Assembly: GCA_900550025.1 (NCBI GenBank)
Contig: URQP01000081.1
Span: 1-12,496, forward strand
Direction: 5' to 3'
DNA: 12,496 nucleotides
Origin: an uncultured Porphyromonadaceae bacterium
Lineage (GTDB): Bacteria > Bacteroidota > Bacteroidia > Bacteroidales > Muribaculaceae
In this document: positions 4,131 to 8,404 of the stretch, piece after piece
Numbering within the stretch: position 1 is the stretch's first letter
Layout of the letters: each line of letters opens with the position of its first letter
Notes under the pieces: generated by a model
Databases searched by the model: none
What the model was told of the DNA's origin: nothing
Seen by the model: the letters and a program-made list of their open reading frames with translations, nothing else
Position numbers and translations under genes: made by a program

Positions 4131-5102
4131 ATGGCAAACAATAGTTTAAAAGAGGCGAAAGCAGCCAAGAACGACGAGTTCTACACTCAATTCCACGACA
4201 TAGAGGTTGAAATGAACGCATACCTTGAATATGACCCCGACGCATTCAGGGGAAAGACCGTCCTGCTGCCTTGCGATGATCCCGAATGGAGCAACTTCAC
4301 ACGGTTCTTTGCCGCCAAGTTCGACGAACTTGGATTGAAAAAACTGATTTCTACGAGCTATGCGCCGGATAGCAAACGATATAAAACACCTTATCAAACG
4401 TCTTTGTTTGAGCGGGATGCGCCACAATTCGACCCGCAAAAGACTTCTGTCAAAGGCAAGATATTCGTATTAGAACGAGATAAAAGCGGCGACGGACGCA
4501 TCAACATAGACGACCTTGAGTGGGAATACTTGGACGGTGACGGCGATTTCCGTAGTAAAGAAGTCACAAAATTGCGTGACGAAGCTGATTTCATCATTAC
4601 TAATCCTCCGTTTTCACTTTTCAGGGAGTTCTTGGCATGGATAATAGAAGGAAGAAAAAGATTTGCTGTAATAGGCAATATGAATGCTATTACTTACAAA
4701 GAAGTTTTCCCTTTGATAAGAACTAATCAAATATGGCTTGGAGCAACAGGAAATGGCAACGATATGGTATTTGGTGTTCCTGAAGGAGCTAAAGTTGACG
4801 ATAAGGATAAGCAAAAAGCTGCCCGCTTAGGATATGTCGGAAATTATACTCGATTAGGAAACTCCTGTTGGTTTACAAGCATAGAACACGGTCGCCGCCA
4901 CCAACCTCTTTCACTAATGACAATAGCTGACAATCTGCGGTATTCCAAACATAAAGAAATAAGGGGGAAATCTGCCTATGACCACTATGACAATTATGAT
5001 GCCATAGAAGTACCTTTTACTGATGCTATTCCGTCCGATTATAAAGGTGTAATGGGAGTTCCTATTTCTTTTTTGATAAAATATTGCCCGGAGCAATTTT
5101 AA
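4131..5102 (+). CDS. EcoRI-type adenine-specific DNA methyltransferase, body (C-terminus displaced by a +1 frameshift)
   Basis: From the ATG at 4131 the frame gives 323 residues. EcoRI-methylase-family features are KNDEFYTQFHDIE at 13-25, CDDPEWSNF at 48-56, FIITNPPFSLFREFL at 154-168 (NPPF is the adenine N6-methylation catalytic motif IV) and GVMGVPISFLIKYCPEQF at the end. The family normally continues after 'P-x-Q-F' with a short tail containing an ILG motif and ending in basic/hydrophobic residues. Here the frame hits TAA at 5100-5102, while the missing tail is intact one base later (cassette at 5101-5235), so one extra T in T5097-T5100 breaks it. Restored, the enzyme would be 367 residues. 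It would transfer methyl groups from S-adenosylmethionine to adenine in a specific site. The second half is clearly more A+T-rich than the first. It leads the accessory cassette. Confidence 0.85.
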   Translation: MANNSLKEAKAAKNDEFYTQFHDIEVEMNAYLEYDPDAFRGKTVLLPCDDPEWSNFTRFFAAKFDELGLKKLISTSYAPDSKRYKTPYQTSLFERDAPQFDPQKTSVKGKIFVLERDKSGDGRINIDDLEWEYLDGDGDFRSKEVTKLRDEADFIITNPPFSLFREFLAWIIEGRKRFAVIGNMNAITYKEVFPLIRTNQIWLGATGNGNDMVFGVPEGAKVDDKDKQKAARLGYVGNYTRLGNSCWFTSIEHGRRHQPLSLMTIADNLRYSKHKEIRGKSAYDHYDNYDAIEVPFTDAIPSDYKGVMGVPISFLIKYCPEQF

Positions 5103-5112
5103 AATCTTAGGG
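5098..5112 (+). repeat. Inverted repeat, left copy (IR-L)
   Basis: TTTAAAATCTTAGGG. It encodes the junction F-K-I-L-G in the frame that continues into cassette A. It is the exact reverse complement of 5352-5366. The base before it (T5097) differs from the corresponding base beside the right copy. Confidence 0.95.
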
Positions 5113-5235
5113 ATGGCATCTTCCGCTGGATATAATGCTGATATTGTTGGGCTTCCTTTCAAAGGGAAAAAAGATGCCAGACCTTTGGTTAATAAAAAAA
5201 ATCGTTATGCAAGAGTGTTTATCAAACATAATTAA
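5101..5235 (+). other. Cassette A: methyltransferase C-terminal tail in current orientation (44 codons)
   Basis: Frame from AAA at 5101 to TAA at 5233-5235. It reads KILGMASSAGYN, then IVGLPFKGKKDARPLV, then NKKNRYARVFIKHN. This is the tail expected after the methyltransferase body ending CPEQF, but it lies in the +1 frame relative to that body. It has no own start or ribosome-binding context at its beginning, so it is a gene end and not a separate gene. Compared with cassette B it shares KILG at the start, PL in the middle and FIKH at the end. Confidence 0.85.
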
Positions 5236-5366
5236 ATATGCTTAATAAATATACGTTTGTATACTTTAACGCCTTTAATAAGGGGTTGTGCTATACGGCT
5301 CTGAGGATTCCATAATCCATTTGAGAAACCTTTTCCCTCACTTTCGGTAGCCCCTAAGATTTTAAA
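5232..5366 (-). other. Cassette B: silent alternative methyltransferase C-terminal tail on the opposite strand (43 codons)
   Basis: On the minus strand, starting in the right inverted repeat (F-K-I-L-G), the frame stays open to TAA at 5234-5232. It reads KILGATESEGKGFSN, then GLWNPQSRIAQPLIKG, then VKVYKRIFIKHI. It aligns with cassette A at KILG, A-x-PL and R-(V/I)-F-I-K-H. The shared residues are often spelled with different codons (ATC/ATT, AAA/AAG), so the likeness is at protein level and not a recent duplication. It has no start codon in this orientation; it would be expressed only after inversion joins it to the methyltransferase body. Confidence 0.85.
5352..5366 (-). repeat. Inverted repeat, right copy (IR-R)
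   Basis: CCCTAAGATTTTAAA on the plus strand, the exact reverse complement of 5098-5112. It lies 21 bases before the start codon of the BRO-family gene, so inversion leaves that gene and its immediate leader unchanged. Confidence 0.95.
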
Positions 5367-5387: not shown

Positions 5388-6236
5388 ATGACTCAACATA
5401 ATACAATAAAACTGTTTGAAGAAAAGAAAGTCCGTGCCATTTGGGACGACAAGGATGAAAAATGGTACTTTTCAATAGTTGATGTCGTGGCTATTCTGTC
5501 AGAAAGCCCTAACCCACGAAAATATTGGAGTGTTTTAAAAACACGCCTCAAAAAAGAAGGTAGTGAGTTGACTACAAATTGTAGTCAACTGAAAATGAAA
5601 GCGGCGGATGGAAAAATGTATCTTACCGACGTGGCCGACACAGAACAGCTTTTCCGGCTTATACAGTCCATTCCATCCCATAGAGCAGAACCGTTCAAAT
5701 TATGGATGGCACAAGTGGCTGCTGAACGGCTTGACCAAATGCAAGACCCGGAACTTTCCATCAACCAAGCTTTGACAGACTACAAACGGTTAGGCTATTC
5801 GGACAATTGGATAAATCAAAGGCTTAAATCAATAGAAATACGTAAAGACCTGACAAACGAATGGAAGAGGCACGGATTGCGGGAAGGAATGCAGTTTGCT
5901 ACGCTCACAGACATCATCTATCAAACATGGAGCGATATGACTGCCAAAGAATATAAAAAATTCAAAGGATTGAAAAAAGAGAATCTGCGTGACAATATGA
6001 CCAACAAAGAGTTGGTACTCAATATGCTTGCAGAATTGTCAACCAAAGAAATTTCAGAAAGCAAACAACCCGAAACATTCGGCGAACATATAGATATAGC
6101 AAAAGCCGGTGGTGAAGTAGCACGTAATGCACGTTTGGAATTAGAGCAAAAAACAGGGAAGCCAGTCATAAGCCCTCTCAATGCCAAAACCGGAATTTAC
6201 TTAAACCTGCCTGAAAAGAATGAACATGAAGAATAA
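5388..6236 (+). CDS. BRO-N domain protein, DinD/phage antirepressor-like
   Basis: 282 residues. An N-terminal BRO domain at about 8-115 has IKLFEEKKVRAIWDDKDEKW, YFSIVDVVAILSES and NPRKYWSVLKTRLKKEG, followed by FRLIQSIPSHRAEPFKLWMAQV. This is the DNA-binding-type domain found in baculovirus BRO proteins and phage antirepressors. The C-terminal half carries KGLKKENLRDNMTNKEL and GGEVARNARLELE, resembling the C-terminal region of DinD-like proteins (E. coli DinD promotes RecA filament disassembly). Its role here is unknown; position between the methyltransferase and the nuclease suggests a regulator or damage-linked accessory. It starts 152 bases after cassette A ends, immediately past the right inverted repeat, and the nuclease gene follows after 12 bases, so those two are surely co-transcribed. 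Confidence 0.85.
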   Translation: MTQHNTIKLFEEKKVRAIWDDKDEKWYFSIVDVVAILSESPNPRKYWSVLKTRLKKEGSELTTNCSQLKMKAADGKMYLTDVADTEQLFRLIQSIPSHRAEPFKLWMAQVAAERLDQMQDPELSINQALTDYKRLGYSDNWINQRLKSIEIRKDLTNEWKRHGLREGMQFATLTDIIYQTWSDMTAKEYKKFKGLKKENLRDNMTNKELVLNMLAELSTKEISESKQPETFGEHIDIAKAGGEVARNARLELEQKTGKPVISPLNAKTGIYLNLPEKNEHEE

Positions 6237-6248
6237 AACATTAAAGTC

Positions 6249-7421
6249 ATGAAAACTACATTACATACAGAATGGACTGTTGCAGATGTCTGCAAAGGCT
6301 TTACATATAACGAATTGGAGGGTAAAGGCTTGTTCGGGCTCTACGGACGGCTCACCATCCAGCCGGAATATCAACGGCACTATATCTACAATGACGGCAA
6401 ACGCGATGTGGCAGTCATTGAATCGCTGTTGAAAGGCTACCCAATCGGGCTGATATACTTCAACCGCACAAACGACGGACGGTATGAAGTGCTTGACGGT
6501 CAGCAACGCATCACGTCTTTCGGCAGGTTTGTAACAGGAAAATTCGCCATAAGAGATGCCGATGGCAATGTGCAGTATTTCTCAGGTTTGCCCCAAGAAT
6601 TGCAGCAAAGGATTATGCTGACCCCATTGCTTATCTACGAATGCGAAGGAGATGAAAGAGAAATAAAAGACTGGTTTCAAACGATAAACATCATGGGTGT
6701 GCCGCTGAACGAGCAGGAAAAGCTCAATGCCATTAATTCAGGTGAGTTTGTCACGGCTGCCAAGCGTGTGTTCAGTAATTCGCAAAACGCCGAAGTTCAA
6801 AAATGGAGCCATTACATAAAGGGTGATGTCAAGCGCCAAGATTACTTAGCAGAAGCCTTAAAATGGGTATGCGCAAGCAAAGGGATGACCATAGATGCCT
6901 ATATGAGCCGGCACCGCCGCGACACGTCCATAAGCGAACTTGAAAACTATTTCCGCTCCGTGATAGATTGGGTTTCCACTACATTTACTATGGTGGAACG
7001 GGATATGTGCGGTCTGGAATGGGGGCGGCTCTACGAAACTTACCATAAGACACCTTACAGCATCGACCATGTGACGGAGCGTGTGCTTGCCCTGCAAGCG
7101 GACGAGAGCATCAAATGCCTACGCAACATCTATGAATACGTATTAGGAGGTGAACAAGACAAAAGTCTGCTTCAAATCCGTTTGTTCGAAGAGTCAACTA
7201 AACGTGCGGCATACACCCGCCAAACCGAGGCAGCCAAAGAAAAAGGCATTTCCAACTGTCCCCTGTGTGCCATAGGCGACAATGCCAACAAGACACGTAT
7301 CTACAAGTTCAATGAAATGGATGCCGACCATGTGACCGCATGGAGCAAAGGCGGTGCTACTTCTATTGAAAATTGCGAGATGCTGTGTAAAACGCATAAC
7401 CGTTCAAAAGGTAATAAATAA
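6249..7421 (+). CDS. DUF262 (ParB-like) plus HNH endonuclease fusion, probable restriction effector
   Basis: 390 residues. The N-terminal DUF262 domain (about 1-160) shows [10 protein letters not shown] at 38-47 and the signature DGQQRITS at 83-90, characteristic of the GmrS/SspE-type N-terminal domain linked to nucleotide-dependent control. A helical middle follows (about 160-330). The C-terminal HNH nuclease has a Cys pair CPLC at 337-340, the catalytic block DADHVTAW at 358-365 with His361, Asn375 and the closing CKTHN at 380-384, which completes a zinc-binding HNH fold. All key residues are present, so it should be an active nuclease. GmrSD and SspE carry a DUF1524-type nuclease domain; this one has the standard HNH with zinc knuckle. 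Next to a DNA methyltransferase it is the likely cleavage partner, but whether it senses modified or unmodified DNA cannot be told from sequence. Confidence 0.9.
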
Positions 7422-7445: not shown

Positions 7446-7484
7446 ATTTTGAGGAAGTTATGAAAGTATCAACTTCCTCAAAAT
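7446..7484. repeat. Perfect 14-bp inverted repeat with 11-base spacer around the recombinase start
   Basis: ATTTTGAGGAAGTT (7446-7459) and AACTTCCTCAAAAT (7471-7484) are exact reverse complements, separated by an 11-base spacer that contains the upstream ATG of the recombinase gene (7460). It has no T-tract after the stem, so it is a poor terminator. The size is in the range of tyrosine-recombinase core sites (two arms around a short spacer). It could equally hide the start codon in a messenger hairpin. It is not similar to the 5098/5352 repeats. Confidence 0.8.
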
Positions 7485-8404
7485 TGTATATGCAGAAAAC
7501 ATTCAAAGAAATTTCAAAAAACTGGTGCGAAACAAAACGCCCGATAGTAAAGCACTCCACTATGTGTGCTTATTTGCTGACGTTGCAAACCCATTTACTG
7601 CCTTATTTCGGTGCAAAGACAGCCATCACAGAAGATGATGTCCAGCAGTTTGTCATTCATAAACTTTCGTGCGGTCTTGCGCGTAAAACCGTAAGGGATA
7701 TGGTAGCCGTATTAAAATCGGTAGCCAAATACGGAAGAAAACATAAGATTTTTCCATTCGAGGATTGGGAAATAGAATATCCTACAGAAACGGAAATGAA
7801 CCGATTGCCAACTTTGGCAATAGAGCATCAACGCATACTAATGCGACATCTGATTGAAAAGCCGACAGCACAGAACATAGGTGTACTGTTGTCACTCTGC
7901 GCAGGCATGAGAATAGGAGAAGTATGCGCACTGCAATGGCAAGATGTGGACTTCTGCCAACGGATTATCACAATAAGGCATACCGTAGGACGAGTTTATA
8001 ATTGCGAGTTAAAATCCACAGAGAAAATACATTCATCGCCCAAAACGAGAAATTCATACCGAGAGATACCCATCTCAAACCTGCTATTCCAATGTCTGAA
8101 AACGGTCAAGAAAGCCTCTGCATCTCCGTTTGTGGTCGGCACGTCAGAACATGCAAAAGAGCCACGCTCATATCGTGACTATTTTTCCCGGTTATTAAAG
8201 CGTCTCGGCATACCCCAAATCGTATTTCATGGGCTTAGGCACACCTTTGCAACCCGGTGTATAGAAAGCCAATGCGATTACAAGACAGTAAGCGTGATAC
8301 TCGGTCATTCCAATGTGGCGACAACACTTAACCTATATGTACATCCGAACCTCAACCAGAAAAAGAAGTGTGTCGAGCGGATGCATAAGTTTTTAGAAAT
8401 CTAA
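7460..8404 (+). CDS. Tyrosine site-specific recombinase (integrase/invertase)
   Basis: 314 residues from the ATG at 7460; a second in-frame ATG at 7490 (residue 11) is possible and would clear the hairpin that contains the first. An N-terminal SAM-like/core-binding region (about 12-105) precedes the catalytic domain. All catalytic residues are visible: Arg151 in CAGMRIGE, Lys195 in SSPKTRNSYREIP, His257 and Arg260 in HGLRHTFATR, His283 in ILGHSNVATT and the nucleophile Tyr293 in NLYVHPNL. It is therefore predicted active. The length fits both small integrases and XerD-like invertases. It lies 38 bases after the HNH gene, probably in the same transcript. It is the natural candidate for flipping the 5098-5366 segment and/or for mobilising the island. 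Confidence 0.93.
   Translation: MKVSTSSKLYMQKTFKEISKNWCETKRPIVKHSTMCAYLLTLQTHLLPYFGAKTAITEDDVQQFVIHKLSCGLARKTVRDMVAVLKSVAKYGRKHKIFPFEDWEIEYPTETEMNRLPTLAIEHQRILMRHLIEKPTAQNIGVLLSLCAGMRIGEVCALQWQDVDFCQRIITIRHTVGRVYNCELKSTEKIHSSPKTRNSYREIPISNLLFQCLKTVKKASASPFVVGTSEHAKEPRSYRDYFSRLLKRLGIPQIVFHGLRHTFATRCIESQCDYKTVSVILGHSNVATTLNLYVHPNLNQKKKCVERMHKFLEI

Follow-up and report, generated by a model that had tools for sequence, protein, structure and literature searches.

Can a DNA methyltransferase exchange its C-terminal end by inversion of a short DNA segment? The question is raised by a 12,496-nucleotide stretch of contig URQP01000081.1 from an uncultured Porphyromonadaceae bacterium (the window, meaning the whole stretch that was analysed), in which the body of an EcoRI-family N6-adenine methyltransferase gene is followed by two short coding segments, here called tails, that face each other between inverted repeats. 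An earlier interpretation made from the letters alone (the sequence-only reading) had proposed that this cassette, at positions 5098-5366, swaps one C-terminus of the enzyme for another. Our best explanation places the cassette in a family of shufflon-like arrays whose tails are predicted to be exchanged on an EcoRI-type methyltransferase by a recombinase, and we give this a probability of about 0.8. We observed arrays of tails at related loci, a recombinase gene at arrays only (among testable loci), opposite orientations in two strains, and different tails on one body. A shufflon at the C-terminus of an EcoRI-family methyltransferase appears well supported in these relatives and likely in the window. 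Below, loci carry L numbers, proteins P numbers and genomes G numbers, and a tail is called silent when it is not the one beside the body but sits farther on, before the next gene.

An inverted repeat encloses two facing tails

The cassette and the gene body in front of it comprise the following features.

4131..5102, plus strand: EcoRI-family N6-adenine methyltransferase body, 323 codons, ending CPEQF-stop (PF13651 E 3.5e-115, profile positions 2-295 of 345; PADLOC MTase_II)
5098..5112, plus strand: left repeat arm at the body-tail joint, predicted recombination site; its position matches TTTGAAATCTTAGG (0-1 mismatch) of 12 other array loci
5098..5235, plus strand: forward tail 1, MASSAGYNADIVG type, stop included, out of frame relative to the body as assembled
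5113..5351, no strand: segment predicted to invert, whose counterpart is inverted between loci L040 and L117
5232..5366, minus strand: silent reverse tail 2, ATESEGKG type, stop included; ratio of nonsynonymous to synonymous change (pN/pS) 0.15-0.38 against six homologous tails
5352..5366, minus strand: right repeat arm, heading the silent tail

The 15-bp inverted repeat on which the sequence-only reading was built (TTTAAAATCTTAGGG) is present and perfect, with arms at 5098-5112 and 5352-5366 and a spacing of 239 nt. No other 15-bp inverted repeat at a spacing of 300 nt or less was found across the whole window, and of 300 shuffles of the window that preserved its dinucleotides, only one contained any. 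Translation also recovered both of the facing frames that had been described: FKILG...RVFIKHN in the forward direction (45 codons counting F, stop at 5233-5235) and FKILG...RIFIKHI in reverse (44 codons counting F, stop at 5232-5234), the two convergent stops overlapping as TTAA.

The body scores 385 bits against PF13651 (EcoRI_methylase), above the gathering cut-off of 26.4, which places it in the family. Because the body alone reaches profile position 295 of 345, and six tailed homologues match as far as 342-344, the tail corresponds to the C-terminus of the EcoRI_methylase family. Both tails have counterparts among genuine enzyme ends. The tail 1 type occurs joined to a body in P0072, L018 and L115, and tail 1 resembles the end of P0072. 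The minus-strand frame of tail 2, whose lack of family similarity had been named as a point that would count against the proposal, does resemble the ends of P0099, L041, L042 and L043.

Tail arrays go with a recombinase gene

We examined 103 loci, namely 22 from a viral collection, 80 from genomes (the best 80 of 386) and the window, together with 120 listed proteins of 7999 scored; viral loci L023-L036 (14 of 36, mostly below 53% identity) were left out. Silent tails were found at 14 loci: the window, L001, L037, L038, L040-L043, L046, L052, L053, L079, L097 and L098. Counting all tails, five of these arrays hold two, seven hold three and two hold four, so that one to three are silent in each. 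In every array locus but L043, whose silent-tail repeat is too diverged to match, each tail begins with TTTRAAATCTTAGG, allowing up to two mismatches, and the exact common core of the repeat is 13-20 bp.

A recombinase gene follows the nuclease gene downstream of the methyltransferase in 13 of 13 testable arrays and in 0 of 75 testable other loci (Fisher p 8e-16). The remaining 15 of the 103 loci were skipped in this count, their contigs being too short for the rule used; array L052, one of them, also has the gene. So do the arrays outside the 103-locus count, L117, L148 and G086 (L136/L145), the last of which was found via its recombinase. Two marks of a shufflon are seen here, at least two alternative tails headed by short repeats (14 loci) and a recombinase gene nearby (13/13 vs 0/75). 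One exception is G537/L151, whose recombinase gene is accompanied by what remains of a nuclease gene; the 8.5 kb examined there contain neither an array nor a methyltransferase. In the window the gene is as follows.

7460..8404, plus strand: tyrosine recombinase, predicted tail-cassette invertase (PF00589 E 2.2e-25; motifs from residues 151, 257, 282 and 293; array association)

All parts of R...HGLRH...GH...Y, the catalytic motifs of a tyrosine recombinase, were found in it. The adjacent recombinase would be the catalyst of inversion. General (RecA) recombination or an unlinked recombinase might do the inverting instead, with the adjacent gene as a hitch-hiker, the tie between recombinase and repeats being a predicted one. 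Against this alternative, which we consider very improbable, stand the exact core of 13-20 bp, short for homologous recombination, and the 13/13 against 0/75 association.

Four of the 80 genome contigs (L039, L048, L069 and L109) end 5-12 nt past the body, within the repeat; 26 of the 80 end anywhere in the next 8 kb, these four included. The continuation contig of G013 also ends in the repeat and that of G014 starts in it; in G016 the nuclease gene, the recombinase gene and a silent tail sit on another contig, and in G015 (L069) no matching recombinase was found. Breaks within the repeat would fit mixed orientations in the sample. A scan of the viral collection matched the window's exact joint in a single stretch, L147, which is unrelated; for the usual joint it matched an array (L148), the contig of L001 (L149) and L150, of which a 1156-nt piece with one repeat copy was available.

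Tail segments are inverted between related strains

Inversion in nature is seen between two strains of Phocaeicola massiliensis, DSM 17679 (L040) and TSDC17.2 (L117). Their flanks agree at 99.6%, with 6986 nt compared on the upstream side and 5631 nt on the downstream side, and between these flanks a 394-nt tail segment (98.2% identity) lies in opposite orientations, with its ends in the repeats; the third tail of L040 is missing from L117. Locus L117 (OY725995.1, 76,873 bp) is labelled plasmid 21. As it has about 13 kb at 99.6% in common with the 3.1-Mb DSM 17679 scaffold, the labelled plasmid may be a chromosomal piece. At greater distance, the entire 563-nt array is inverted between L037 and L038 (84% identity), and 254 nt are inverted between L040 and L001 (87% identity).

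Tails of one array are also found on matching bodies. All three tails of L037 occur in this way: on P0019 (its own protein) and P0020 with 323/323 body identities, on P0021 with 323/323 and on P0043 with 321/323. For L040, L117, L038 and L001, one silent tail each is carried by a body of 322-323/323 identities (P0110, P0106, P0007 and P0092, respectively). The remaining array loci gave no such body-tail match among the 120 listed proteins. Ungapped body counts of 80/323, 82/323 and 272-275 were misregistered and were excluded.

Rearranged states thus occur in nature in relatives, though not for the window's own cassette. The central idea of the sequence-only reading, an invertible C-terminal cassette of an EcoRI-family methyltransferase, gains strong support from the L040/L117 inversion and from the three L037 tails on the same or nearly the same body; its concern that no related genome would show the segment reversed is answered, at the level of the family, by that same inversion.

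We also considered whether silent tails are passive leftovers of duplication or gene transfer, with no active inversion. The window copy is out of frame, nuclease or recombinase frames are broken in arrays L046, L098 and L043, and one tail pair shows a pN/pS of 1.03, all of which passive remnants would explain. Against this stand the inversion between near-identical strains with its breakpoints in the repeats, which contradicts such an explanation at the family level, the occurrence of array tails on identical bodies, the mostly synonymous change of silent tails and the complete recombinase association in testable loci. We regard passive remnants as the least probable of the alternatives, with next to no chance of being right.

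Selection on the tails was assessed in pairs that include a silent copy, leaving out pairs more than six codons apart in length. The pN/pS was 0.07-0.44 in six tail groups; the exception, which weighs against our preferred explanation, is the L040/L042 pair (CNRG) with its value of 1.03, and the L040/L117 pair had too few changes for the calculation. Because change is mostly synonymous, silent tails seem for the most part to be kept as protein, which is what their regular expression would lead one to expect.

The joint of the window copy is out of frame

In one respect the sequence-only reading was wrong. It had held that inversion yields an in-frame F-K-I-L-G junction, but the body frame (ATG at 4131) reads ...LIKYCPEQF and then meets an in-frame TAA at 5100-5102 within the repeat, and the FKILG frame is offset by one from the body frame, so that both tails are out of frame in either orientation. 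Since the body stops in the repeat, one frame off both tails, the window copy is unable to make the full-length enzyme by ordinary reading.

Counting the window, 99 loci extend 30 nt or more beyond the body. In 97 of them the joint is open and body and tail share one frame; only the window and L038 have a stop there (2 of 14 array loci against 0 of 85 others). The body-side tail of L038 is found in frame on a 322/323 body in P0008, which shows that open versions exist.

It is a coin-toss whether the window copy is an OFF or dying allele, in which the frames disagree at the T run ending the body and no tailed enzyme is made either way. The in-frame TAA argues for this, as does the confinement of joint stops to two loci that are both arrays. 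Pulling the other way, all three downstream genes are open, the silent tail of the window still shows largely synonymous change, and the UUU-UAA context of the joint resembles known +1 frameshift sites; an assembly error could also account for the stop. The window copy may be switched off, recently broken, read by ribosomal frameshifting at UUU-UAA, or wrongly assembled.

The tail probably sets the methylated target

The 120 listed homologues (88-93% body identity) all continue CPEQF[E/K]ILG and then diverge into many tails. In 96 aligned enzymes, mean column entropy was 0.96 bits over residues 1-323 and 2.33 bits beyond, making the tail the most variable part; the body has a variable stretch of its own, less marked, around residues 211-235 (1.9-2.2 bits), and the last strand of the tails is conserved. 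In array loci the portion that is exchanged comprises the final 32-74 residues. The inner tails form about 30 types by average linkage (34 clusters at the cut, a few being truncated or frameshifted singletons). Single-linkage clustering had merged unrelated tails, apparently via chimeric proteins, and average linkage on the inner tail was used in its place.

Several types occur on divergent bodies. The ATESEGKG type is found in Bacteroidales, L076 (Spirochaetia), L108 (Leptolinea) and L113 (Anaerolineales), and the ITDR type in Bacteroidales, L101 (Methylococcaceae) and L102/L110 (Anaerolineae, Anaerolineales). Some tails are irregular. Those of P0033, P0066, P0068 and P0070 look chimeric or internally deleted or duplicated, through assembly artefact or recombination within the tail, and P0106 (130 contigs) and the silent tail of L117 have an ITDRQ tail with its end replaced by MYAHSFANYNLICLIRTRA, apparently frameshifted yet present in many contigs.

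Alignments of a structural model to M.TaqI, MmeI and CamA stop mostly at residues 317-330. The tail would start about where the target-recognition domain starts in solved gamma-type N6A methyltransferases. Because the tail is the most variable part and begins near this point, a changed target sequence is likely. Foldseek gave no match below E 0.001, and a PDB sequence search with P0072 returned a chance match only. VIA-align says little on function, since mostly RNA methyltransferases of the KsgA/Dim1 and METTL5 types outrank the DNA enzymes in it.

In our model, the tyrosine recombinase encoded just downstream would act at TTGAAATCTTAGG-type repeats and invert the short segments that encode the tails. 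The EcoRI-type adenine methyltransferase body would stay constant and gain one of two to four different C-terminal tails. The tail would be the target-recognition part, and each flip would change the methylated sequence; specificity switching is the most likely purpose of such an arrangement. Alternatively, the tails might switch without setting the DNA target, so that the same site is methylated throughout and what changes is the activity of the enzyme, how it pairs with the nuclease, or its escape from anti-restriction proteins of phages. The nuclease shows no overall tracking of tail type, as expected for a constant site; the tails also have their conserved last strand in common, and the body holds a second variable stretch. 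Yet no part of the enzyme varies more than the inner tail, which comes in about 30 types, several of them across phyla, as with target-recognition domains, and which sits about where gamma-type enzymes place theirs. We therefore hold an unchanged target to be unlikely.

One nuclease gene accompanies all tails of an array

Two further genes lie between the cassette and the recombinase gene of the window; the sequence-only reading had mentioned none of these three genes.

5388..6236, plus strand: Bro-N-domain protein, PADLOC candidate PDC-S13 (PF02498 E 2.5e-10; PDC-S13 E 4.1e-136)
6249..7421, plus strand: GmrSD_N (DUF262) and HNH nuclease, predicted restriction enzyme (PF03235 E 1.7e-20, PF01844 E 1.6e-7; PADLOC REase_II E 2.3e-86)

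A nuclease gene lies downstream of the methyltransferase gene in 93 of the 103 loci; the contigs of the remaining 10 break off before 870 nt. Nuclease and methyltransferase genes are thus adjacent, as in type II restriction-modification systems. The resemblance to the modification-dependent GmrSD nucleases is half a fit: GmrSD_N is present, the nuclease domain is HNH (PF01844), and PF07510 (DUF1524), the His-Me domain type of those enzymes, is not among the listed matches. A PDB sequence search with the nuclease gave no match. Five of the 103 loci (the window, L001, L040, L041 and L042), all of them arrays, have a Bro-N gene that separates the array from the nuclease gene, as do L117 and L148 beyond that set.

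Because a single nuclease gene accompanies all tails of an array, the DUF262-HNH nuclease would have to follow the specificity of the methyltransferase. The presence of one nuclease gene with two to four tails would also argue against the two enzymes recognizing one fixed site independently. A test of covariation between nuclease and tail gave no overall signal (p 0.10). At L004 and L058, tandem EcoRI-family methyltransferase genes with apparently different tails precede a single nuclease gene, a fixed holding of two tails.

Taken together, these points allow a more far-reaching and tentative proposal, to which we give less than even odds: the whole specificity may reside in a portable tail of about 32-74 residues shuffled by a dedicated recombinase, and the DUF262-HNH nuclease may take its target from the methyltransferase, so that one inversion would reprogram modification and restriction, with the T run adding an OFF state.

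Some relatives of the recombinase adjoin hsdS genes

Recombinase matches at E 1e-90 or better turned up in 11 of 393 sampled genomes of the order, three of them of array type (G001, G013 and G086) and eight at 47-51% identity. Three of these eight closest non-array recombinases adjoin HsdS genes (L154, L155 and L158), and perfect inverted repeats of 43 and 50 bp occur at the HsdS genes of L154 and L155, respectively. The scanned neighbours of the other five are Mrr-type nuclease, AAA or peptidase genes. More distant relatives in array genomes, at 42-47%, adjoin TonB receptor genes (L132 and L134), a SufBD gene (L131) and an unidentified gene (L133).

The hsdS repeats (L154:3553-3595 and L155:5070-5119) contain AAATTTGAGATTTCCG, which looks similar to the AATTTGAAATCTTAGG of the tail arrays. 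The two are possibly related recombination sites.

Comparison with known systems

Type I HsdS offers well-documented cases of specificity switching by DNA inversion. The literature searched, which did not cover the Milman 2023 survey, held no account of inversion switching in an EcoRI-family methyltransferase. Were the tail indeed the recognition domain, every array would offer two to four ready specificities on one body, and about 30 tail types exist. Tail sequence could then be decoded directly into target, and a module of fewer than 80 residues would perhaps provide swappable specificities. The methylome of these Bacteroidales would be phase-variable, and one would have to ask how a single nuclease can survive when its methyltransferase changes.

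In the R64 shufflon, a pilV body receives alternative C-terminal ends that lie in short inverted repeats, and the adjacent tyrosine recombinase Rci inverts multiple segments. The arrays described here are alike in their constant body, their alternative C-terminal ends in short inverted repeats, a recombinase gene nearby and inversion of several segments. PMC5903667 mentions R64. Unlike the R64 product, a pilus tip protein, the product here is a DNA methyltransferase encoded beside a nuclease gene, and the recombinase gene lies beyond that nuclease gene.

BREX pglX is a case of inversion within the methyltransferase gene of a defence system, and in this the arrays resemble it. In a PADLOC scan of four window genes the best matches were MTase_II, REase_II and PDC-S13; none of the four was a PglX, and BREX was set aside. 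Ordinary pairs of an EcoRI-family methyltransferase and a DUF262-HNH nuclease differ from the arrays, as the 75 testable non-array loci have neither a silent tail nor an adjacent recombinase gene.

Finally, Spn556II/cod of S. pneumoniae (PMC4948785) is an example of the phase-variable type I systems with an invertible hsdS; a tyrosine recombinase is involved in such systems. A type I hsdS inverton at the switch of the window was rejected, as none of the six window sequences scanned matched Methylase_S (PF01420). As in invertible hsdS systems, inversion here would exchange recognition modules of a restriction-modification system, and sister recombinases of the one in the window adjoin hsdS genes with inverted repeats. 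In contrast to those systems, what is switched in the arrays is a stretch of 32-74 residues at the end of a single-chain EcoRI-family methyltransferase.
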